Assembly (NCBI GenBank): GCA_035505375.1
Contig: DATJQV010000012.1
Location: 1-64,000 of the forward strand
DNA from: a bacterium
GTDB taxonomy: Bacteria; Hydrothermota; Tepidihabitantia; Tepidihabitantales; Tepidihabitantaceae
Length of the DNA: 64,000 bases
Direction: 5' to 3'
A program made the position numbers and the translations under genes. How positions within the stretch are numbered: the stretch's first letter is position 1; every line of letters starts with the position of its first letter. Under the pieces are notes generated by a model. That model worked only from the letters and a program-made list of their open reading frames with translations. It searched no databases and was not told the origin of the DNA. Positions 8,587-33,813 of the stretch are shown one piece after another.

Positions 8587-10350
8587 TCAGCTAGCTTCCT
8601 CGGCAATCATGCTCTCCAGCCCGGCCTCGACTTCGGCAACCGTGAACTGCCTGCCGTCATACCGCCGAACCGTCCCGGCGGTTTGCACCCCGCACTCCTG
8701 CGACAGAAGCTGAGCCAGTTGACCCGAGTAGTTCTCTTCCACAGTCACGACCTTGCGATCCTTACTCACCATCGAGGCAACGGCCTCGGCCGGGAACGGC
8801 CAGACGTGGTCGAGGTACACCATGGCGACACTGACGCCTTTGGCGCGCAGGCGGCCAAGCGCCTCAGCCACCACCCCACGACTCGACCCGAAGCAGAACA
8901 CGAGTGTCTCAGCCTCAGCCTCAACCTTGACCTTCCGTTCCTCAACCTCCTGCCTGATACCCTCAATCTTCGAGTTGCGTTTGTTCACCATCAGGACACG
9001 CATCGCGGCATCCTCGGTTATGTGCCCTTCCTCGGTGTGCTCGTCCGAATCGGCATAGACAAGCTGTTGCTCGGTTCCCGGCAGCACGACCGGCGATACC
9101 CCGTTCTCCGTGACCTGATAGTGCCGATATGTGTACGGCTCGGATCCGTCCGCCACTTGGCGCTCTTGGCGTCCTTGGCGGTTATCCAGTTTCAGGTCGC
9201 TCCGCTCAATGGTCCACAGCGCGTCGGCCATGACCTGGTCAAACAGTATGATGACCGGCGTCTGGTACTTCTCGGCAATCCGGAACGCGTCCTGCGCTGC
9301 TCGGAATGCCTGCTCTGCGTCTGCCGGTGTCAGCACCGCACGCGGGAACTCGCCGTGTCCGGCGTTGATGGCAAACAGAAGGTCGGCCTGCGCCGTCCGA
9401 GTAGCCAGACCGGTTGCCGGGCCCGGCCGCATGCCCACGCACATTACCAGCGGGACCTCGGTCATGCCGGCCAGGCTCAGGGCCTCGTTCATCAGGCAGA
9501 ACCCGCCGCCGGCAGTGCAGACCATAGCCCGCTCTCCGGCGAACGCTGCGCCGATAGCGAGGTTGGCTGCCGACACCTCATCCTCGGTTTGCTCCACAAT
9601 CAGGCCTGCCTCCTCCGCGTTGCGGAAGCAGTATTCGACAATCGGGGTGGCCGGTGACATCGGATACCCGGTAACCACGCGCACATTAGCGGCAATTGCG
9701 CCCAGCGCCAGCGCCTCTGCGCCGGAAATCAGAAGCCGTTCTCTCGGTACACGATCCGTTTCCTCGGCGGAAACGGTCATGTCCCTCGACGCCTGCAGCC
9801 GGTGCGGGCAGCATCGTTTATGGTCATCCAGCACAGCATTGTACCCGGCCTTGGCTGCAGCCACATTGCGCTCAACTACCTCTTTGCCCTTGTGTCCGAA
9901 CTGGCTCTCGAACACTCCATCGAGACCGGCCGGCTCCAGCCCGACCAGAGCCAGTGCCGCACCAGTGGCAACCGAGTTAATCATGACCGGGTCCTTCCCG
10001 TGCTCCAGCGCGAGGTCTGCAAGCGGAAGTCGAACTACATTCAGTCCTTCGGGCAGATCGCCGACCGCCTCGGTCAACACGACGGCGTCCTCAGCCAGGT
10101 CGGGAACGTGCCGCTCTACCAGCGTGTGGTCCAGCGCGACGAGGATCTGGGCTTTGTCGCCGTCCGCAGCCACCGGCACATCGCTGACCCGCACCCGCGC
10201 GAAGTTATGCCCTCCCCGTATCCGCGACATCACGTCCTGCGAAACGAACACGTAGCGGCCGGCCCTGACCAGCAACCGGCCAAGCGTGCGCGAGATGACC
10301 TGGAGTCCCTGCCCTGCCTGCCCGGCGACAATCAGGTTGAGCTCTCTCAC
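8587..10350 (-). CDS. 2-oxoacid:ferredoxin oxidoreductase, fused gamma-alpha subunit, copy 1
   Basis: Partner of the beta subunit. The N-terminal gamma domain (about residues 1-185) has IVAGQAGQGLQVISRTLG and DVMSRIRGGHNFARVRVSD. The alpha domain follows with VTGYPMSPATPIVEY and the C-terminal transketolase-like segment. The start is a GTG whose GTGA overlaps the stop of korB copy 2 by 4 bases (10347-10350). The longer ATG frame beginning at 10434 runs inside korB copy 2 and is not the start. Length is 587 residues. A 9-base repeat (CTTGGCGCT-like, 9157-9183) lies in the coding sequence near the middle. Confidence 0.9.
   Translation of the reverse strand: MRELNLIVAGQAGQGLQVISRTLGRLLVRAGRYVFVSQDVMSRIRGGHNFARVRVSDVPVAADGDKAQILVALDHTLVERHVPDLAEDAVVLTEAVGDLPEGLNVVRLPLADLALEHGKDPVMINSVATGAALALVGLEPAGLDGVFESQFGHKGKEVVERNVAAAKAGYNAVLDDHKRCCPHRLQASRDMTVSAEETDRVPRERLLISGAEALALGAIAANVRVVTGYPMSPATPIVEYCFRNAEEAGLIVEQTEDEVSAANLAIGAAFAGERAMVCTAGGGFCLMNEALSLAGMTEVPLVMCVGMRPGPATGLATRTAQADLLFAINAGHGEFPRAVLTPADAEQAFRAAQDAFRIAEKYQTPVIILFDQVMADALWTIERSDLKLDNRQGRQERQVADGSEPYTYRHYQVTENGVSPVVLPGTEQQLVYADSDEHTEEGHITEDAAMRVLMVNKRNSKIEGIRQEVEERKVKVEAEAETLVFCFGSSRGVVAEALGRLRAKGVSVAMVYLDHVWPFPAEAVASMVSKDRKVVTVEENYSGQLAQLLSQECGVQTAGTVRRYDGRQFTVAEVEAGLESMIAEEAS
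9157..9183. repeat. Three tandem 9-base words inside korA copy 1
   Basis: CTTGGCGCT, CTTGGCGTC and CTTGGCGGT in a row, read on the minus strand as an Arg/Gln-rich segment. It resembles the other short periodic insertions of this window but has a 9-base unit, so the frame is kept automatically. Confidence 0.5.
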
Positions 10351-11309
10351 ACGAATTCTTCCAGTGCCCGCTTCACCACATCCACAGCGTCCGCCTGCAA
10401 ATCCCGGTGCTGCGAGAGCGCCTGTCGCAGCCACCCCCTCCCTTCTGTTCCCTCCCCCTTGAGGGGGAGGGAAGGGTGAGGGTGGTCCGGACTGACCGCC
10501 GCAGGTTGTTCGGACGCCCCGCAGGCCTCATAGGCCTGACGGTGCGACCGGTAGAAGATACCGATAGGAATCTGTTTGGCTTCCCCCTCACATGGCCATT
10601 CCAGCACCCTTGCCCGGGCCTTATCCTCATCCGACGCGTCGTGCGCCTCCAGGGCGAGATCGTAGACTCGCGTCCGGTACCAGTCGAACGTATTGACAAG
10701 GTTGTAGGTCACGCACGGCTGCAGGATATCGATGAACCCGAAGCCCTTGTGCTTCAGTGCCTCGCCTATCAACCGCGAGAGGTGCTTCACGTCCCCGGCA
10801 AAACCCCTGGCGACGAAACTGCCGCCCAGCGCCAGCCCGGCCGCCAAAGGGTTGAACGCGGGTAATACCGTACCGGTTGGGCGGTTCTTCGTGGCAAAGC
10901 CGTAGCCGCTGGTCGGCGCTGCCTGGCCCTTGGTCAGGCCGTAGACACCATTATTGTGTACGAGGCAGACGATATCCGGATTGCGCCGGAACGCGTGCAG
11001 CAGGTGGTTCCCACCCTCGCCGTACATGTCGCCGTCACCACCGACCGCGATGACCTTGAGCGCGGGGTTGGCCAGCTTCACGCCCAGCGCGTGCGGCAAC
11101 GCCCGGCCGTGCAGGCCGTGCAGGAAGTTGGCGCCCACATACTGCGCCACCTTTCCTGACTGGCCGATGCCACCCACGACAACGACCTGCCACGGCTCGA
11201 GTCCGGACTCGGTCAGCGCCTGCCTGAGTGCGTTCAGAATGCCAAAGTTCCCGCAACCCGGGCACCAGGTCACTTCAGCGCTTGAGGTCCAGACCTTGTC
11301 TTCCGCCAA
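10347..11309 (-). CDS. 2-oxoacid:ferredoxin oxidoreductase, beta (TPP) subunit, copy 2
   Basis: Same family as the 7548-8420 product: TWCPGCGNFG at the N-terminus, VGGDGDMYGEGGNH in the middle and NNGVYGLTKGQAAPTS. The 320 residues exceed copy 1 by about 30. Most of the excess is a C-terminal stretch, PHPSLPLKGEGTEGRG, encoded by a 51-base palindromic repeat (10434-10484) that sits in frame before the last helix. The start is a TTG with AGGAG six bases upstream. It overlaps korA copy 1 by 4 bases. Confidence 0.9.
   Translation of the reverse strand: MAEDKVWTSSAEVTWCPGCGNFGILNALRQALTESGLEPWQVVVVGGIGQSGKVAQYVGANFLHGLHGRALPHALGVKLANPALKVIAVGGDGDMYGEGGNHLLHAFRRNPDIVCLVHNNGVYGLTKGQAAPTSGYGFATKNRPTGTVLPAFNPLAAGLALGGSFVARGFAGDVKHLSRLIGEALKHKGFGFIDILQPCVTYNLVNTFDWYRTRVYDLALEAHDASDEDKARARVLEWPCEGEAKQIPIGIFYRSHRQAYEACGASEQPAAVSPDHPHPSLPLKGEGTEGRGWLRQALSQHRDLQADAVDVVKRALEEFV
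10434..10484 (-). repeat. 51-base palindromic repeat, copy 1, in frame inside korB
   Basis: The core has 10-base arms CCCTCCCCCT and its complement around a TG centre, with G/A-rich flanks. Its reverse complement matches 39128-39178 at about 48 of 51 positions. It behaves like a mobile REP-type element that landed in a coding sequence without breaking the frame. Confidence 0.85.
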
Positions 11310-11326
11310 ACTACGCTCCTCCGGGT

Positions 11327-11451
11327 GAAGGACAAAGTCGTAAGGACAAAGGACTAAGCAAGCACGAATGGCGGAAAGTCCGAATCGGACTTTGGCCTTT
11401 GTACTTTCCTTCTTGCTTTGTCCTTTGTACTTTGTCCTTTGTACTTCGAGT
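11327..11451. repeat. Heptad repeats forming a long hairpin between korA2 and korB2
   Basis: The left arm contains GGACAAA-type words from 11330. The right arm is an exact series TTTGTCC, TTTGTAC, TTTGTCC, TTTGTAC, TTCGAGT (11417-11451). The tip is a perfect 8-base stem, AAAGTCCG/CGGACTTT (11375-11393). Its position between alpha and beta genes matches the locus at 8441 in the other kor copy, but the sequence is unrelated. Confidence 0.8.
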
Positions 11452-11462
11452 CCTTGCGCCGC

Positions 11463-13235
11463 TCATCTGCATACGCTCCGCAGCTCTTCCGCCAGCTCCT
11501 GTGCGACAAACGGCCTGCCGTCATACTTCAGCACCTGCGCGTCCGCCTTGATTCCGGTCTCGCGCCTCAGCAGGGCGGCAAGTTGTCCGGTCGAATTACC
11601 CTCGACCGTGATGACCCGGCGCGCCGAGGAAAGCAACGCCGCCACGCGCTCACGCGGGAAGGGCGCAACCTCACAGAGATGGAGCATCGCCACGCTCACC
11701 CGCTGCTCGCGTAGTATGTCAACCGCCTCGCGCGCCGCCCCGTACGTGGAGCCGAAGCAGACCACGACACAGTCGGCGGTCTTCTCCGGGTGGCAGGTGG
11801 GATCCTCTATCGTTGTCGACATCGCCGCAAGCTTCCTCATCCGTTTCTCGTGCATCCGCACGCGCACGCCGGCATCCTCGGTCTGCATGCCGCTCTCGTC
11901 GCGTTCTGCCCCGAGCATGTGGACCAGTTGGCCCGCGAAGCCCGGCCGCAGCCGCGGCGACACCCCGTCCCTGGTCACCGCGTAGCGACGATAGCTGAAC
12001 GCGGGCCGCCCCTGCCACTCCAGATCGTCAAGGTCGTCGCTCGCCTTGACACGAGCCAGATTGAATCCCGGTACGGTCCACAGTGAGTCGGAGAGGAACT
12101 GGTCAGAGAGGATGATGGCCGGCACCTGAAACCTGCCCGCCAGCTCGAACGCCCGATTGGTGGCGTAGAAAGCCTCCTCCGCGGTCCCGGGCGCGAATAC
12201 GAAGCGGGGAAACTCGTCCTGCGAGGCGTTGATGGCAAAGAGCAGCTCGGCCTGCTCGGTCCGCGTCGGGAATCCGGTCGCCGGTCCCGGCCGCATCGCA
12301 ATCACAATCACGACCGGAAGCTCGGCCATACCGGCCATACCGAGCCCCTCGACCATCAGCGAAAAGCCGCCGCCCGAAGTCGCGGTCATCGCGCGGGCAC
12401 CGGCATAGGCCGCGCCGATAACCATGTTGATGGCCGCAATCTCGTCCTCGGCCTGCTCCATAACCAGACTGGCATCGGCCTGCTTCGCGGCGAGGTACTC
12501 CATTATCGGCGTTGACGGCGACATCGGATACCCGGCGTAGAAGCGCACGCCTGAGGCCAGCGCCCCGAGAGCAATAGCATGATTGCCGGTCAGGAGCATT
12601 CGCTTCGCCCGTGCGGACTGCTTCGGCAGAGTGCAATCGCAGGTCCCGCCCCAGCTCTGCCTCACATAGTCAGCCCCGGCTCTCAGACACTCCACGTTCT
12701 GCTTCACCACCTGCTCACCCTTGGCGATGAACCGCTCCTTGAGCAAGCCCTGCAGTCTATCCAGCGGGTGCCCGGTAAGGGCAAGCAGCGCGCCCAACCC
12801 GACCACATTCGCCATCGTCTTCGTACCGCCGTGCTTCTCCGCAATCTCCGCCATCGGAACACGGAAGGTCGTCTTGTCGTCGGCTCGTCCTTGGTCTGTC
12901 GTCCCCTGCCCCTCGCCCCTCGTCCCCCGTCCCCCGTCCCTGGTCCTGGTCGGCTCGGCTATGATGACTCCGCCTTCCACCATGTCCTGCCCGTGTTCGC
13001 TCACCGACAACTCATCCAGCGCCAGCAGAGCGTTGAACCTGCCCGGCGGCGAATAGACCGGCCGCTCCGAGACCCGCACCGCGGTAAAGTTGTGCCCACC
13101 GCGGATGCGGGACATCAGATTGGGATAGGAAAACGTGTAATAGCCGCTCCGCACCAGGGCGCGGGCAAGCAACTCCGATGCGGTGTCGATGCCCTGCCCG
13201 GCTTGGCCGGCGATGGTGAGAGCGATGTCGGTCAC
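11463..13235 (-). CDS. 2-oxoacid:ferredoxin oxidoreductase, fused gamma-alpha subunit, copy 2
   Basis: 590 residues. The gamma domain has IAGQAGQGIDTASELLARAL and NLMSRIRGGHNFTAVRVSE; the alpha domain has FYAGYPMSPSTPIMEYLA. Between them, at about residues 95-115, is an Arg/Gly/Thr-rich insert encoded by nine heptads (12891-12953) that copy 1 lacks. The start is a GTG six bases after a TAACAT -10 box (promoter at 13242-13270), so this gene probably heads the korA2-korB2-korA1-korB1 transcript. Two tandem, diverged copies suggest two substrates (for example 2-oxoglutarate and a branched-chain or pyruvate-type acid), which is an inference. Confidence 0.9.
   Translation of the reverse strand: MTDIALTIAGQAGQGIDTASELLARALVRSGYYTFSYPNLMSRIRGGHNFTAVRVSERPVYSPPGRFNALLALDELSVSEHGQDMVEGGVIIAEPTRTRDGGRGTRGEGQGTTDQGRADDKTTFRVPMAEIAEKHGGTKTMANVVGLGALLALTGHPLDRLQGLLKERFIAKGEQVVKQNVECLRAGADYVRQSWGGTCDCTLPKQSARAKRMLLTGNHAIALGALASGVRFYAGYPMSPSTPIMEYLAAKQADASLVMEQAEDEIAAINMVIGAAYAGARAMTATSGGGFSLMVEGLGMAGMAELPVVIVIAMRPGPATGFPTRTEQAELLFAINASQDEFPRFVFAPGTAEEAFYATNRAFELAGRFQVPAIILSDQFLSDSLWTVPGFNLARVKASDDLDDLEWQGRPAFSYRRYAVTRDGVSPRLRPGFAGQLVHMLGAERDESGMQTEDAGVRVRMHEKRMRKLAAMSTTIEDPTCHPEKTADCVVVCFGSTYGAAREAVDILREQRVSVAMLHLCEVAPFPRERVAALLSSARRVITVEGNSTGQLAALLRRETGIKADAQVLKYDGRPFVAQELAEELRSVCR
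12891..12953 (-). repeat. Nine in-frame heptads inside korA copy 2
   Basis: Plus-strand words in exact register: TTGGTCT, GTCGTCC, CCTGCCC, CTCGCCC, CTCGTCC, CCCGTCC, CCCGTCC, CTGGTCC, TGGTCGG. The 63 bases equal 21 codons, so the reading frame is preserved. Confidence 0.85.
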
Positions 13236-13270: not shown

Positions 13271-13523
13271 GCGAATTCGACAGCCGAGGGTCAACCTTGG
13301 ATGAACGGGCGCAGCATGGCCATCCGCAGACTACTCAGCCGAGCTGAACCACGAAAGCACGAAGACATGACCCACCACGGAAGCACCGCCGGGCAGATGC
13401 GCCGGTGAGCGAAGCTTCGTCCTCATATAGTAATAACCCGGTTTCCGCGTTTTTGTACAAGAGAGAGTTGAGCTAAGTGCTGATTTCCCGCCCAGGGGTC
13501 GTAGGGGGGAGGTCTCCCCCAGA

Positions 13524-13823
13524 CCCTATCCCGGCGCTTAGGGGAGTGCTTATCCCGACGCTTAGGACGGTGCTTATCCCAGCGCTTGTGGGGACGCTTG
13601 TCCCGACGCTTGTGAGGGTGCTTGCCCCGACGCTTGTGAGGGTGCTTGTCCCGACGCTTATGGAGGTGCTTATCCCAGCGCTTGTGGGGACGCTTGTCCC
13701 GACGCTTGTGAGGGTGCTTATCCCGGCGCTTGTGACGGTGCTTGTCCCGACGCTTGTGACGGTGCTTGTCCCGGCACTTGTGACGGTGCTTATCCCGGCG
13801 CTTATTACGGCTCCTATCCCGGC
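13524..13823. repeat. 12-bp-period array 1 (25 units, 300 bp)
   Basis: Twenty-five consecutive 12-mers of the type GCTTGTCCCGAC alternating with GCTTGTGACGGT, giving a 24-bp higher-order period. It lies in the divergent region between the kor operon (minus) and the secreted repeat protein (plus). All frames stay open on both strands because of the period. I do not read it as a gene: there is no codon bias, signal or ribosome site. The rest of the 829-base gap (13236-13523) holds a short CACGAAG-type repeat near 13352 and a GGGGGA/TCCCCC hairpin at 13505-13520. Confidence 0.9.
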
Positions 13824-13860
13824 GCTGGGTTTCAGCCGCACCGCCGATGCGGCCATTGGC

Positions 13861-13888
13861 TTGACCGGGACAGGACCGGGATTACAAT
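13861..13888 (+). promoter_or_regulatory. Promoter upstream of the secreted repeat protein
   Basis: TTGACC (13861-13866), 16-base spacer, TACAAT (13883-13888). The first ATG is nine bases further on (13898) and opens a 26-codon ORF. The main gene starts at 14065 with its own ribosome site, so the transcript has a leader of about 170 bases. Confidence 0.6.
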
Positions 13889-13897
13889 AGACGCGAC

Positions 13898-16338: not shown

Positions 16339-17577
16339 ATGGTATCTGGGTATTTCGACCACGCCGCCGCAGCACCGCTACTGCCCGAAGCGCGCGAGGC
16401 GATGCTGACCTTCCTTGGTGATGAATTCGGTAACCCGTCCAGCCTACACCGTTATGGCAACAAACCCAGGGAGGCGATCGAGAACGCCCGCGCACAGGTG
16501 GCCGCGCTCATCAATTCCCGGCCGGATGACATAGTTTTCACCGCATCCGCCTCCGAATCCAACAACCTTGCCGTCAAGGGTCTTGCCCTCGCCCGCCGGG
16601 ACAAGGGCAGGCACGTCATTATCTCCGCCATTGAGCACGTATCGGTGCTGGAGGCGGCAAAGTCGCTCACCCTGAGCGGCTTCGAGGTCACTCAGGTGCC
16701 GGTCAGCCCCGAGGGCGTGGTCGAGCCGGCCAAACTGACCGCCGCCATCAAGACCGACACGGTCCTCGCATCGGTGATGCACGCCAATTACGAAGTCGGC
16801 ACTATTCAGAACGTCAAGGAGCTGGCCGGAATCGCGCGCCGGTTCCGGGTTTCGTTCCACTCCGACGGCACTGCCGCGGTCGGCCGGATTCCGGTTGACG
16901 TGACTGACCTTGGTGTTGACGCATACACGTTCCCGGCCATGTCGGTCTACGGTCCCAAAGGCGCTGCCGCCCTCTACTTGAAACGTGGCACACGAATCCA
17001 GTCACTTATCGAAGGTGGTTTCCAGGAGAAGAATCGTCGCGCCGGCACCGAGAACGTAGCCGCCATCGCCGGGTTCGGGGCTGCCGCCGCAATCACGAAG
17101 ACGAAGTTACCCGAATGGTCGGCGACGATGACGAAGCTGGCACAGCGCATCTTCAGTGAACTGCCACAGAGGCTTGACCACGTCATTTTCACCGGCTCGA
17201 TGTCGAACCGCATCCCCGGACAGGTCAGCGTCGTGGTCGAGTTCGTCGAGGGCGAATCGATGTTGCTCTTCCTCGACGACGAAGGCATCGCCGCCGCGTC
17301 CGGCTCGTCCTGCTCGGCCAAGACCTTGAAGGCATCCCACGTGCTGCTGGCGATGGGACTGCCGCATACGAAAGCCCAGTCTTCGCTGGTCCTGACGCTG
17401 GGCAAGGACTCGACCGACGAAGACGTGACCCATTTCCTCGACAAGCTGCCGCCTATGGTCCAGCGACTGAGGCAGATGTCACCTCTCTACGCGAAGTTTC
17501 AGAAGGGCGAGGACCCGTACGCAGTGAAGCCCGGCGACTCGTGCGAAGAAGAGCACCACGATGAAGAACACGAATAG
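16339..17577 (+). CDS. Cysteine desulfurase homologue (NifS/IscS) lacking the PLP lysine
   Basis: 412 residues of the class V aminotransferase fold: FDHAAAAPLLPEA, ISAIEHVSVLEA with the PLP-stacking His100, HSDGTAAVG and GGFQEKNRRAGTEN, with the mobile-loop Cys325 in ASGSSCSAKTL. The motif that normally reads SAHKxYGPKG reads PAMSVYGPKG, so the Schiff-base Lys is Ser202. The PLP-contacting Asn (Tyr151 here), Gln (Ala180) and the substrate Arg (Val in SSLVLTLG) are also changed. The frame is otherwise intact. The tail is rich in His, Glu and Cys (SCEEEHHDEEHE). It sits before a NifU scaffold gene. A PLP-free partner or adaptor for Fe-S assembly is likely; desulfurase activity is unlikely. Confidence 0.88.
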   Translation: MVSGYFDHAAAAPLLPEAREAMLTFLGDEFGNPSSLHRYGNKPREAIENARAQVAALINSRPDDIVFTASASESNNLAVKGLALARRDKGRHVIISAIEHVSVLEAAKSLTLSGFEVTQVPVSPEGVVEPAKLTAAIKTDTVLASVMHANYEVGTIQNVKELAGIARRFRVSFHSDGTAAVGRIPVDVTDLGVDAYTFPAMSVYGPKGAAALYLKRGTRIQSLIEGGFQEKNRRAGTENVAAIAGFGAAAAITKTKLPEWSATMTKLAQRIFSELPQRLDHVIFTGSMSNRIPGQVSVVVEFVEGESMLLFLDDEGIAAASGSSCSAKTLKASHVLLAMGLPHTKAQSSLVLTLGKDSTDEDVTHFLDKLPPMVQRLRQMSPLYAKFQKGEDPYAVKPGDSCEEEHHDEEHE

Positions 17578-17603
17578 GACCTATATGATCTGTAGGAGAG
17601 TTG

Positions 17604-18065
17604 ATGTATTCTGAGAAAGTAATGGAGCATTTCCGCAACCCGCGCAACGTCGGTGAGATTGAGAACGCCGACGGCGTGGGAGAAATCGGCAATCCGGTCT
17701 GCGGGGACATGATGACGTTCTACGTGAAGATTGAGAACGGCATCCTGACCGACGTGAAGTTCAAGACCTTCGGCTGCGGCGCGGCTATCGCGGTATCCTC
17801 AATGGTCAGCGAGATGGCCAAGGGCAAGACCGTCGAGGAGGCGATGAAGATATCGAACGCGGATGTCGCCAAGGAACTGGGCGGCCTGCCCCCGAACAAG
17901 CTCCACTGTTCCAACCTCGGCGCGGACGCGCTCCACAAGGCGATTGAGAACTACCAGGCGAAGAAGCCCGGCAACGAGAAGAAGGGCTGCCGCTGCCCGT
18001 ACTGCGACGCCCCGGTCGAGGGCAGCAGGATATGCGCGCCCTGCAGTGCCCAGGGCCGCAACTAG
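17604..18065 (+). CDS. NifU/IscU-type Fe-S cluster scaffold with Cys-rich tail
   Basis: 153 residues. The three scaffold cysteines are present in GNPVCGD, FKTFGCGAAIAVSSM and LHCSNLG, with the conserved Asp after the first. A C-terminal extension of about 40 residues adds CRCPYCDAP and ICAPC, a probable zinc ribbon not found in ordinary IscU. The start is the ATG at 17604, five bases after AGGAG; the TTG just before it is less likely. It lies 26 bases after the desulfurase-like gene and 16 bases before a glutaredoxin gene, and should work with both in cluster assembly. Confidence 0.92.
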   Translation: MYSEKVMEHFRNPRNVGEIENADGVGEIGNPVCGDMMTFYVKIENGILTDVKFKTFGCGAAIAVSSMVSEMAKGKTVEEAMKISNADVAKELGGLPPNKLHCSNLGADALHKAIENYQAKKPGNEKKGCRCPYCDAPVEGSRICAPCSAQGRN

Positions 18066-18081: not shown

Positions 18082-18363
18082 GTGAAGTTGACCCATGTAC
18101 CCGGCAGGAATGCCAAGCACCGTGTAACTCTCTATGCGCTCTCGACCTGCGGCTGGTGCAGCAAGACCAAGGAGTTGCTGAACTCCAACCAGGTTCAGTA
18201 CGAGTACATCGACGTGGACCAGTGCCAGGGCGATGAACGCACCGAGGTAGCCAACAAGGTGCGCGAGCTGAATCCGCGCGGTTCGTTCCCGACCGTCAGG
18301 ATCGACGGCGAGGTAGTGGCCGGCTTTGACGAAGACCGCATCCGGGAGCTGCTCGATCTGTGA
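18082..18363 (+). CDS. Glutaredoxin-like thiol-disulfide protein
   Basis: 93 residues with a thioredoxin fold: [19 protein letters not shown] carries a CxxC active site at the start of the first helix, and [11 protein letters not shown] contains the cis-Pro. The CGWC pair and the lack of a glutathione-binding signature resemble NrdH-like or anaerobe-type glutaredoxins that take electrons from a reductase. The start is a GTG preceded by AAGGAG. Its stop overlaps the GTG of the FTR-rubredoxin gene by 4 bases, so the two are coupled and are probably redox partners. Confidence 0.88.
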
Positions 18364-18878
18364 GCGCCGAGGAACGATTTCCCGACGAGGTCCTCAAGAC
18401 CTACGAACGCCTGAAACAGGAGGCCGAGTCGACCGGGTATCGCCTCAACCCGGACAAGAGCTTCACCCTTCGCCTCATCCAGGGCCTGCTCGACAACGAG
18501 AAACGGTACGGCTATTGGTGCTGCCCCTGCCGGCTCTCGTTCGCGGACAAGGCCAAAGACCTTGATGTCATCTGTCCCTGCTACTACCGGGACTCCGACG
18601 TCGAAGAGTTCGGCGCTTGCTACTGCGCTCTTTACGTGTCCGACGACTGGATTGAGGGCAAGAAGAAGCACGGCTCCATCCTCGAGCGCAGGCCGGCCAA
18701 GTTCATGCGCGACGGCTATTCCGAATCTGCTCCCCAGCCCCCAGCCCCCGGCCCCCAACCCCTCTCTCTTCCCGTCTGGCGCTGCAAGGTCTGCGGCTAC
18801 CTGTGCGCCCGGCCCGAGCCGCCGGGCAAGTGTCCAATCTGCAAGGCAGGCAAGGACCGATTTGAACGGTTCGTGTAG
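18360..18878 (+). CDS. Ferredoxin-thioredoxin reductase catalytic domain fused to rubredoxin-like domain
   Basis: 172 residues. The first 115 carry the FTR catalytic-chain pattern: CPC in [13 protein letters not shown] in [10 protein letters not shown] and CYC in GACYCALYV. These ligate a 4Fe-4S cluster next to a redox disulfide. A Pro-rich linker (about residues 122-138) encoded by six heptads leads to a rubredoxin-like iron site ([10 protein letters not shown] and GKCPICKAG). The fusion suggests electrons pass from rubredoxin to the FTR centre and on to the glutaredoxin encoded just upstream, with which it overlaps. The start is a GTG. Confidence 0.9.
18727..18768 (+). repeat. Six in-frame heptads forming the FTR-rubredoxin linker
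   Basis: CTGCTCC, CCAGCCC, CCAGCCC, CCGGCCC, CCAACCC, CTCTCTC in exact register; 42 bases, 14 codons, read as a Pro-rich hinge between two metal domains. Confidence 0.8.
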
Positions 18879-18887
18879 GAGGGCCCG

Positions 18888-19181
18888 ATGATCGTCGAAG
18901 TGAGCGTGGTCCCGGTCGGAACCGGCAACACCAGTGTCAGCTCCTACGTCAGGGCTGCCGTCAAGATTATCGAGGAAACCGACCTCGATTACGAGATCAA
19001 CTCCATGGGCACCTGCGTGCAGGGCGAGTGGGATGAGATCTTCTCGACCCTCAAGGCCGTGCACGACGAGCTGGCGAAGCTGGGCTGCAACCGGATAGTC
19101 ACAACCGTAAAGATCGACGACCGGCGCGACAAGTTCGGCGCCATGGACGCGAAGATCGCCGCGGTCGAAGAAGACCTCTAG
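18888..19181 (+). CDS. MTH1187-family thiamine-binding protein
   Basis: 97 residues matching the small MTH1187/YkoF-like family (formerly DUF77): MIVEVSVVPVGTG, then SYVRAAVKIIEE, DYEINSMGTCVQGEWDEIF, and LGCNRIVTTVKIDDR. Family members form tetramers that bind thiamine or related ligands. An AGGAGG-like site precedes the ATG, and the gene follows the FTR-rubredoxin gene by nine bases. It is the last gene of the operon, with a strong hairpin behind it. Why a thiamine binder belongs to a sulfur/redox operon is not evident; thiazole sulfur supply is one guess. Confidence 0.85.
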   Translation: MIVEVSVVPVGTGNTSVSSYVRAAVKIIEETDLDYEINSMGTCVQGEWDEIFSTLKAVHDELAKLGCNRIVTTVKIDDRRDKFGAMDAKIAAVEEDL

Positions 19182-19203
19182 CCGAAAGCTACTCAACACA
19201 GAC

Positions 19204-19224
19204 GGGGCGCGGTTGCCGCGCCCC
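19204..19224. terminator. Bidirectional hairpin between convergent genes
   Basis: Perfect 9-base GC arms (GGGGCGCGG and complement) with a TTG loop, placed between the end of the plus-strand sulfur operon and the end of the minus-strand cNMP-binding gene. The T tract is weak. Confidence 0.65.
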
Positions 19225-19247
19225 GCGTTCATTCTGCCTGACCGGCG

Positions 19248-33221: not shown

Positions 33222-33307
33222 GCCCTTTCGCATCCTAACTTCGTCACTAACAATTAGTTATTAGACCTTACTGAATTTCCCCCATCCCGTCTCACCCACT
33301 CTTTGGC

Positions 33308-33655
33308 AAGCTCTCTCCCAAGCTCTTTGGTAAGGCCTCTGCCAAGCTCTCTGGCAAGGTCTCTGCCAAGCTCTCCGGCAAGGTCTCTGCCAAGCTCTCT
33401 ACCAAGGTCTTTCCCAAGCTCACTGGTAAGGTCTCTGCCAAGCTCCTTGGCAAGGTCTCTGCGAAGCTCTCTGCCAAGGTCTCTGGCAAGGACTCCCCCA
33501 GGCTCTTTGGTAGGGTCTCTGCCAAGCTCCCTGGCAAGGTCTCTCCTAAGCTCTCTGCCAGGCTCTCTGGTAAGGTCTCTCCCAAGCTCTCTGGCAAGCT
33601 CATTCCCAAGTTCCCTGCCAAGCTCCTTCCCCAACTCCGTGACAAGCTCTTTCGC
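33308..33655. repeat. 12-bp-period array 2 (29 units, 348 bp)
   Basis: Twenty-nine 12-mers alternate AAGCTCTCTGGC and AAGGTCTCTGCC. GGCA and TGCC alternate every 12 bases, so adjacent units can pair as short hairpins. It lies in the divergent gap between the Xre gene and the RelE gene. All frames are open, but the predicted peptides are 4-residue repeats with no start signals; it is not read as a gene. Confidence 0.9.
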
Positions 33656-33702
33656 TCGCGCTCGGAAGTTGTTGCCTCAGCGCAGCAGAAGGCGGGCGCC
33701 GG

Positions 33703-33813
33703 TCAGCGTCGGCTGTTGATGACTACGACCTTGCCGAGTTCACGGCTGCCGCGGGGACTCGCGACTGAATAGCAGTAGATGCGGCTTGGCAATCCAGCGA
33801 CGTTCGACCTGCA
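33703..33813 (-). pseudogene. Detached fragment of a sorting-tail gene end
   Basis: The minus-strand frame reads SNVAGLPSRIYCYSVASPRG and then ELGKVVVIN before its stop. It closely matches the last 30 residues of the 34483-37047 protein (VPSGVYCYSVASPNG and LGKVVVVN). At DNA level 33720-33790 is about three-quarters identical to 34495-34565. It is a direct duplicate of that gene's 3' end without any upstream gene body. The RelE/Phd pair lies between the two copies. Confidence 0.75.

Follow-up and report, generated by a model that had tools for sequence, protein, structure and literature searches.

A Lys-less IscS homologue encoded with NifU in a Hydrothermota bacterium belongs to a bacterial clade found in at least nine phyla

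Background

In the textbook view, Fe-S cluster assembly on an IscU-type scaffold begins with cysteine and a PLP-dependent desulfurase. In E. coli, TusA is known as an acceptor of sulfur from IscS. E. coli IscS and human NFS1 share with P0001, the protein described here, the whole fold, the Cys loop and the IscU partner, but they are active desulfurases and possess the catalytic Lys, Arg, Gln and Asn that P0001 lacks.

IscS of Archaeoglobus fulgidus is without the Lys and has no desulfurase activity, and its Cys serves as a ligand of the IscU-bound cluster (PMC7585200; PMC9769115). PLP was described as present in the IscS-IscU structure 4EB5, which likewise lacks the Lys (PMC9769115). Like P0001, the A. 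fulgidus protein (PDB 4eb5, 4eb7, 4hvk) has the type I fold, the conserved Cys and an IscU/NifU partner; Asp199 takes the place of the PLP Lys, Arg354 is replaced by Leu and Gln183 by Ala. A preliminary description of the locus had drawn this parallel, and it holds (PMC7585200). IscS1 of Methanosarcina acetivorans has also been reported to lack the catalytic Lys and to be paired with IscU1 (PMC7585200), its likeness to P0001 being by description only.

Two minimal scaffold systems are known from anaerobes, MIS (MisS-MisU) and SMS, of which SMS can use sulfide (PMC12192291). While MIS is defined with a cysteine desulfurase, the P0001 locus has the scaffold but not the catalytic residues of a desulfurase; SMS uses SufB/C homologues and, unlike the P0001 locus, not NifU. 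In E. coli lacking iscS, H2S feeds IscU (PMC13015791). No description of a TusA/DsrE2 relay ending on an IscS homologue was found in the literature searched. In the open-access papers searched, Lys-less IscS was not described as a bacterial clade, nor as linked to TusA or DsrE2.

Results

The IscS homologue P0001 and its operon

The window, i.e. the whole stretch of 64,000 nucleotides analysed here, contains an operon beginning with the gene for P0001, a protein of 412 amino acids (Table 1). By fold and homology, P0001 is a type I cysteine desulfurase homologue over its full length. Its scores are below the cut-offs of both specific families, 418.9 bits against 530.75 for TIGR03402 (NifS) and 344.1 bits against 643.2 for the NCBIfam equivalog of IscS. 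The AlphaFold2 model has a mean pLDDT of 88.3 and matches human NFS1 (Z 53.0), E. coli IscS (Z 51.6) and A. fulgidus IscS (Z 51.3, 44% identity) over nearly the whole length. Residues 326-329 of the Cys loop and 400-412 of the tail are disordered in it.

Active-site residues were compared using the numbering of E. coli IscS, whose sequence matches PDB 1p3w to 100%. Besides the Schiff-base Lys, the alignment revealed replacement of Asn155 (Tyr151 in P0001), Gln183 (Ala179), His205 (Met201) and the substrate carboxylate-binding Arg354 (Val351). Of the marks of a type I desulfurase, the Schiff-base Lys, Arg, Gln183 and Asn155 are thus absent, while the Cys loop and the equivalents of Asp180 and His104 are present. 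From the established chemistry of the family, P0001 is predicted to be very unlikely to desulfurate cysteine, as it has lost the Schiff-base Lys as well as the carboxylate Arg. The tail, reading ...KPGDSCEEEHHDEEHE, has counterparts elsewhere: tails with at least three His occur in 12 of 59 Lys-less rows versus one of 47 Lys-bearing rows.

The P0001 gene is followed 3' by genes for NifU, a glutaredoxin, a fusion of the ferredoxin:thioredoxin reductase (FTR) catalytic domain with rubredoxin, and an MTH1187-family protein, and finally by a terminator-like hairpin; the successive gaps between the genes are 23, 16, -4 and 9 bases. NifU retains the cluster and catalytic residues Cys37, Asp39, Cys63, Lys103, His105 and Cys106. 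The preliminary description had been made from the sequence of the window, and alignment, model and Pfam matches bear out its account of the residues lost, with correct numbering, of the retained Cys325, fold and frame, and of the tail and the operon partners. Its central point, a desulfurase homologue without its own chemistry that is kept with NifU, agrees with the residue losses and the pairing found here.

Table 1. Features of the P0001 operon and of related loci
Feature	Position	Strand	Basis
Lys-less IscS/NifS homologue P0001, ATG 16339 to stop 17577	16339..17577	+	open frame, PF00266 8e-63, TIGR03402, AlphaFold2
His100 (E. coli His104), invariant in Lys-less clade	16636..16638	+	alignment
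Asp176 (E. coli Asp180), invariant in Lys-less clade	16864..16866	+	alignment
Codon 202, TCG, Ser at the site of E. coli IscS Lys206, which forms the Schiff base with PLP	16942..16944	+	alignment
Cys325 (E. coli persulfide Cys328), invariant in Lys-less clade	17311..17313	+	alignment
Lys331 (E. coli Glu334), clade-specific, 98% Lys, six residues after the Cys	17329..17331	+	alignment
His/Glu/Cys-rich C-terminal tail, mostly disordered in model	17527..17574	+	sequence, model
NifU/IscU scaffold, start TTG 17601 or ATG 17604	17601..18065	+	PF01592 5.7e-50; TIGR03419 205 bits, above cut-off 187.9
Zinc-ribbon-like CxC..C...CxxC tail of NifU	17988..18044	+	sequence; similar tails in NifU of the same family
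Dithiol glutaredoxin (CGWC), GTG start	18082..18363	+	PF00462 4.2e-15
FTR catalytic domain fused to rubredoxin-like domain	18360..18878	+	PF02943 2.5e-21, PF21349 1.4e-13
MTH1187-family thiamine-binding protein	18888..19181	+	PF01910 1.6e-32; TIGR00106 106.6 bits, above cut-off 54.7
Terminator-like hairpin, 10 G-C pairs, after last gene	19203..19225	+	consensus match only
MTH1187-family (PF01910) genes	L206 401-685; L208 2916-3200; L212 6746-7060; L213 4899-5186; L225 7440-7787		
NifS-like gene start running into N stretch	L214 = G070:C1:183540-183950		

A clade of Lys-less IscS homologues in bacteria

Ser at the Lys site was also found in five same-genus genes (L003, L004, L005, L007 and L017) and in a separately named record of candidate division WOR-3 (L032). 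The Ser codons, where read, are TCG or TCC, a synonymous change. Pairwise dN/dS of P0001 against three same-genus genes is about 0.09-0.13 (NG86), corresponding to purifying selection. Since Ser is fixed at this site in the family of the window and a whole clade is without the Lys, Ser202 is not a product of chance. Two of the same-genus genes, in L017 and L007, carry in-frame inserts of 16-36 residues, e.g. PVPAGRVQPPFSSTESGGSPSRAGRVQPPFSSTESG, which look as if they stem from a repeated DNA element.

For the tree, 58 bacterial Lys-less rows were obtained from searches of relatives and from named genomes; many of the genomes are MAGs. At the Lys206 site these rows have Gln (55%), Ser (17%), Thr (12%), and otherwise Val, Ala or other residues. 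Arg354 is Arg in none of them (0%), and Gln183 is kept in 3% and replaced by Ala in 84%. Cys328, Asp180, His104, Glu156 and Arg240 are invariant. Other residues are specific for the clade, namely Ser for Ala106 (100%), Lys for Glu334 (98%), Asn for Asp79 (98%) and Gln for His350 (93%). P0001 is placed inside the clade and has its marks, Ser102, Lys331 and Gln347.

In a careful tree of 56 rows, from which the active-site columns were excluded, the bacterial Lys-less sequences form one clade (bootstrap 100, SH-aLRT 97), and the same grouping was obtained in a quick tree of 106 rows (SH-aLRT 93). The preliminary description had treated the gene as an isolated case; instead, the clade extends over at least nine named phyla, with members in Chloroflexota, Nitrospirota, Thermodesulfobacteriota, Acidobacteriota, Omnitrophota, Elusimicrobiota, Planctomycetota, WOR-3 and Myxococcota, the last represented by MAGs labelled Deltaproteobacteria. 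Its interpretation as a whole is partly supported; the PLP-free, perhaps sulfide-fed, route that it suggested would be one of the possibilities discussed below.

A. fulgidus IscS shares with the bacterial clade the changes Gln183 to Ala, Ala106 to Ser, Asp79 to Asn and Ala331 to Lys as well as the loss of Arg354 (to Leu), but it is archaeal and does not have the residues corresponding to Lys331 and Gln347 of P0001. In the tree it lies outside the clade, beside a Lys-bearing Thermoplasmata sequence (88/96). The free tree thus favours two independent losses of the Lys, but a single clade of A. fulgidus IscS and the bacterial rows is not rejected (p-AU 0.217), so that the Lys may have been lost once or twice.

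A Lys-bearing NifS is also present in 30 of the 35 named genomes with a Lys-less gene. The remaining five appear to have the Lys-less copy alone, but in at least one of them, G070 (Dehalococcoidia), a second NifS fragment runs into an N stretch (Table 1), and the suggestion that its Lys-less gene is the only desulfurase homologue was given up.

Sulfur and Fe-S genes of the window genome

The genome from which the window is taken (G000) has 3.6 Mb and is rated 98% complete. The second, complete desulfurase whose search the preliminary description had proposed is present, a Lys-bearing NifS with the motif SGHK at G000:C4:30916-32121. It does not adjoin NifU, is 40% identical to P0001 and is far apart from it in the tree. 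Exactly one protein with a NifU_N domain is encoded, the NifU of the P0001 operon. SufB/D were not found in this 98% complete genome, which is one of 43, among 46 searched (the window's own and 45 relatives), that gave no match, whereas all 14 control genomes were positive. With one NifU in the genome and no SufB/D found, P0001 and NifU are the only recognised Fe-S scaffold pair of the organism.

TusA and DsrE2 were likewise not found in this genome, and a relay by these carriers in the window genome itself was discarded. On C54, two type II class V enzymes (CsdA/SufS-like) are encoded in tandem next to a cysteine-synthase-like gene (L204 = G000:C54:8000-16000; L112); this pair may be a further source of sulfur in the window genome.

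Gene neighbourhoods of Lys-less and Lys-bearing copies

NifU adjoins the Lys-less gene in most loci, but not in several WOR-3 families. Of 36 named Lys-less loci, 21 have a TusA gene within about 5.5 kb, against none of 43 Lys-bearing loci (p 7.5e-10). Shared descent means that these loci are not statistically independent, but the pattern recurs across phyla and in two gene orders. One order, IscR-TusA-[IscS]-NifU, is that of Nitrospirota; the other, [IscS]-NifU-DsrE2-TusA, occurs in Dehalococcoidia, Smithella and one family of WOR-3 (L223). DsrE2 showed the same distribution (10/36 versus 0/43), and MnmA the opposite trend, with one Lys-less and 13 Lys-bearing loci. The Lys-bearing comparison set came from a search seeded with Lys-less sequences, a bias that is answered in part by a paired control of 29 genomes with both kinds of gene. 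There, TusA beside one copy only was found 16 times for the Lys-less and never for the Lys-bearing copy (p 3e-5), NifU beside one copy only 15 times and twice, respectively; in 13 of the 29, TusA is near neither copy. The known TusA site gave no further hint: Trp45 of E. coli IscS is kept in neither the Lys-less nor the Lys-bearing group, and no inference was drawn.

In relatives from WOR-3, the identity of TusA and DsrE2 was confirmed by Pfam. Genes for these sulfane-sulfur carriers are recurrent neighbours of Lys-less copies in many relatives; in the family of the window, the slot after nifU is occupied by glutaredoxin and FTR-rubredoxin instead of TusA/DsrE2. In other WOR-3 families, the Lys-less gene comes after genes for flavoredoxin, hybrid-cluster protein and flavodiiron protein or after genes for rubrerythrin-like proteins, and in another arrangement it lies between DsrEFH-type genes and RnfC. 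The latter is seen in L215 (629-10000), where genes for DsrE2, DsrE, DsrE/F, DsrH, a DUF438-hemerythrin-PAS protein, a rubrerythrin-like protein, the Lys-less IscS and RnfC are located on one strand, seemingly followed by further Rnf genes on the same strand.

In L216, L217, L219 and L220, the Lys-less iscS directly follows genes for a flavin reductase-rubredoxin and a flavodiiron protein. A gene for hybrid-cluster protein is found in three of these four loci, and a link to oxygen or NO defence is possible. In several WOR-3 families (L221-L224 and L206-L208), a run of two to five rubrerythrin-like genes is located upstream of the Lys-less iscS or of nifU; such runs could serve as an iron source or in peroxide defence.

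A gene of the MTH1187 family (PF01910) stays close to nifU or to the FTR gene throughout WOR-3, also in loci such as L206 and L208, in which nifU and the Lys-less iscS are apart. A zinc ribbon also recurs with the Lys-less pair, either as the NifU tail or as a separate double-zinc-ribbon ORF alongside (L225 6462-6683; zr68 family in L035, L039, L041 and L043). The separate ORF was detected in four of 36 Lys-less and in none of 43 Lys-bearing loci.

NifU residues facing IscS

In the NifU partners of Lys-less IscS, the six cluster and catalytic residues named above for the window NifU are conserved to 100%. Differences to the NifU proteins encoded beside Lys-bearing NifS are Met for Val40, Thr or Gln for Lys42, Phe for Leu43, Val for Ser69, Asn or Gln for Val102 and Gly for Ala110; the NifU of the window is of the Met40/Thr42/Asn102 type. 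Val40 and Lys42 contact IscS in the E. coli complex (PMC2854127). In G066, G068 and G069, which possess both pairs, the two NifU types track the two IscS types, while the difference is smaller in Nitrospirota. That the Cys loop and the fold are kept, along with a tuned NifU, indicates that Lys-less IscS probably still serves as a platform.

Discussion

The explanation judged rather likely is that P0001 is a retained, non-desulfurase paralogue of IscS which docks NifU, with Cys325 acting as persulfide acceptor or cluster ligand and sulfur coming from outside. For the direction of sulfur flow, the role of Cys325 and the electron donors we infer the following. P0001 would serve as docking partner of its dedicated NifU, its mobile Cys325 loop would accept sulfane sulfur made elsewhere or ligate the nascent cluster, and NifU would assemble the Fe-S cluster. 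In many relatives, sulfur would probably be supplied via TusA/DsrE2 carriers of the same operon; it is the association of these genes with Lys-less copies that points to an arrival of sulfur from carriers. In the family of the window, glutaredoxin and FTR-rubredoxin reductase may reduce the persulfide to sulfide or keep thiols reduced, and the sulfur itself could be supplied by the distinct Lys-bearing NifS, by a further desulfurase or as sulfide.

Several observations do not fit easily. The window genome has neither TusA nor DsrE2, so that a relay deduced from relatives would be replaced or absent here, and in 13 of the 29 paired genomes TusA is near neither copy. Gene neighbourhood gives no direction, and E. 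coli TusA takes sulfur from IscS. NifU is not adjacent in several WOR-3 families, and the invariance of Asp176 and His100 may indicate that the protein continues to bind a cofactor.

A purely structural role as in A. fulgidus, in line with the sulfide-fed route of the preliminary description, is considered rather unlikely. Cys325 would then only provide a ligand for the [2Fe-2S] cluster while it forms on NifU, with the sulfur taken from free sulfide. The archaeal precedent (PMC7585200; PMC9769115), the substitutions common to it and the clade, the feeding of IscU by H2S in E. coli lacking iscS (PMC13015791) and the lack of TusA and DsrE2 in the window genome all speak for it. It leaves unexplained, however, why TusA/DsrE2 genes lie by Lys-less and never by Lys-bearing copies, and of 35 genomes with a Lys-less gene, 30 have a Lys-bearing NifS as well. 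Sulfide is possible as a live alternative source, most of all for the family of the window, since H2S can feed IscU without iscS (PMC13015791) and sulfide can feed SMS (PMC12192291).

Two further roles for P0001 appear improbable, and equally so. It could be a regulator or heterodimer partner steering the Lys-bearing NifS to NifU, in keeping with the presence of both kinds in the window genome as well as in 30 of the 35 named ones, but P0001 is just 40% identical to the Lys-bearing copy of its own genome and distant from it in the tree. The five genomes with the Lys-less copy only would also count against this role, but they are unsafe given the N stretch in G070. Alternatively, PLP or PMP could be kept without a Schiff-base Lys for another or slower reaction. 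Non-covalent binding of a cofactor is conceivable because 4EB5 was described with PLP (PMC9769115) and Asp176 and His100 are invariant in the clade; the equivalents of Asp180, His104 and Thr243 are retained to 96-100%. Against such a reaction, the carboxylate Arg is absent in all, Gln183 and Asn155 are mostly absent, and His205 is variable. An artefact, such as the sequencing error at codons 201-202 that the preliminary description had allowed for, or a decaying gene is refuted to near certainty by the same substitution in same-genus genomes, dN/dS of about 0.1 and one clade across phyla.

Returning to the acceptor role of P0001, a wider proposal is made tentatively and with somewhat less than even confidence: the clade may represent a distinct Fe-S route of anaerobic bacteria in at least nine phyla, in which IscS would have changed from a producer of sulfur to an acceptor that is supplied by TusA/DsrE2 or other carriers and acts with its own NifU. 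In some lineages, including that of the window, this route would provide the main or only scaffold. If true, many bacteria feed the same scaffold with sulfur from a source other than a cysteine desulfurase, and the odd case of A. fulgidus becomes a general solution that has arisen once or several times. It also becomes testable whether a platform with the IscS fold is required when that fold makes no sulfur. Lys-less genes are liable to be annotated as cysteine desulfurases, and the sulfur metabolism of their hosts would then be misdescribed.

Other features of the window

Upstream of the operon, the minus strand contains two gene sets resembling 2-oxoacid:ferredoxin oxidoreductases (8587-13235). 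Arrays of 12/24-base tandem repeats are located at 13473-13890 and 33228-33710, and within the first array ORFs are open on both strands.
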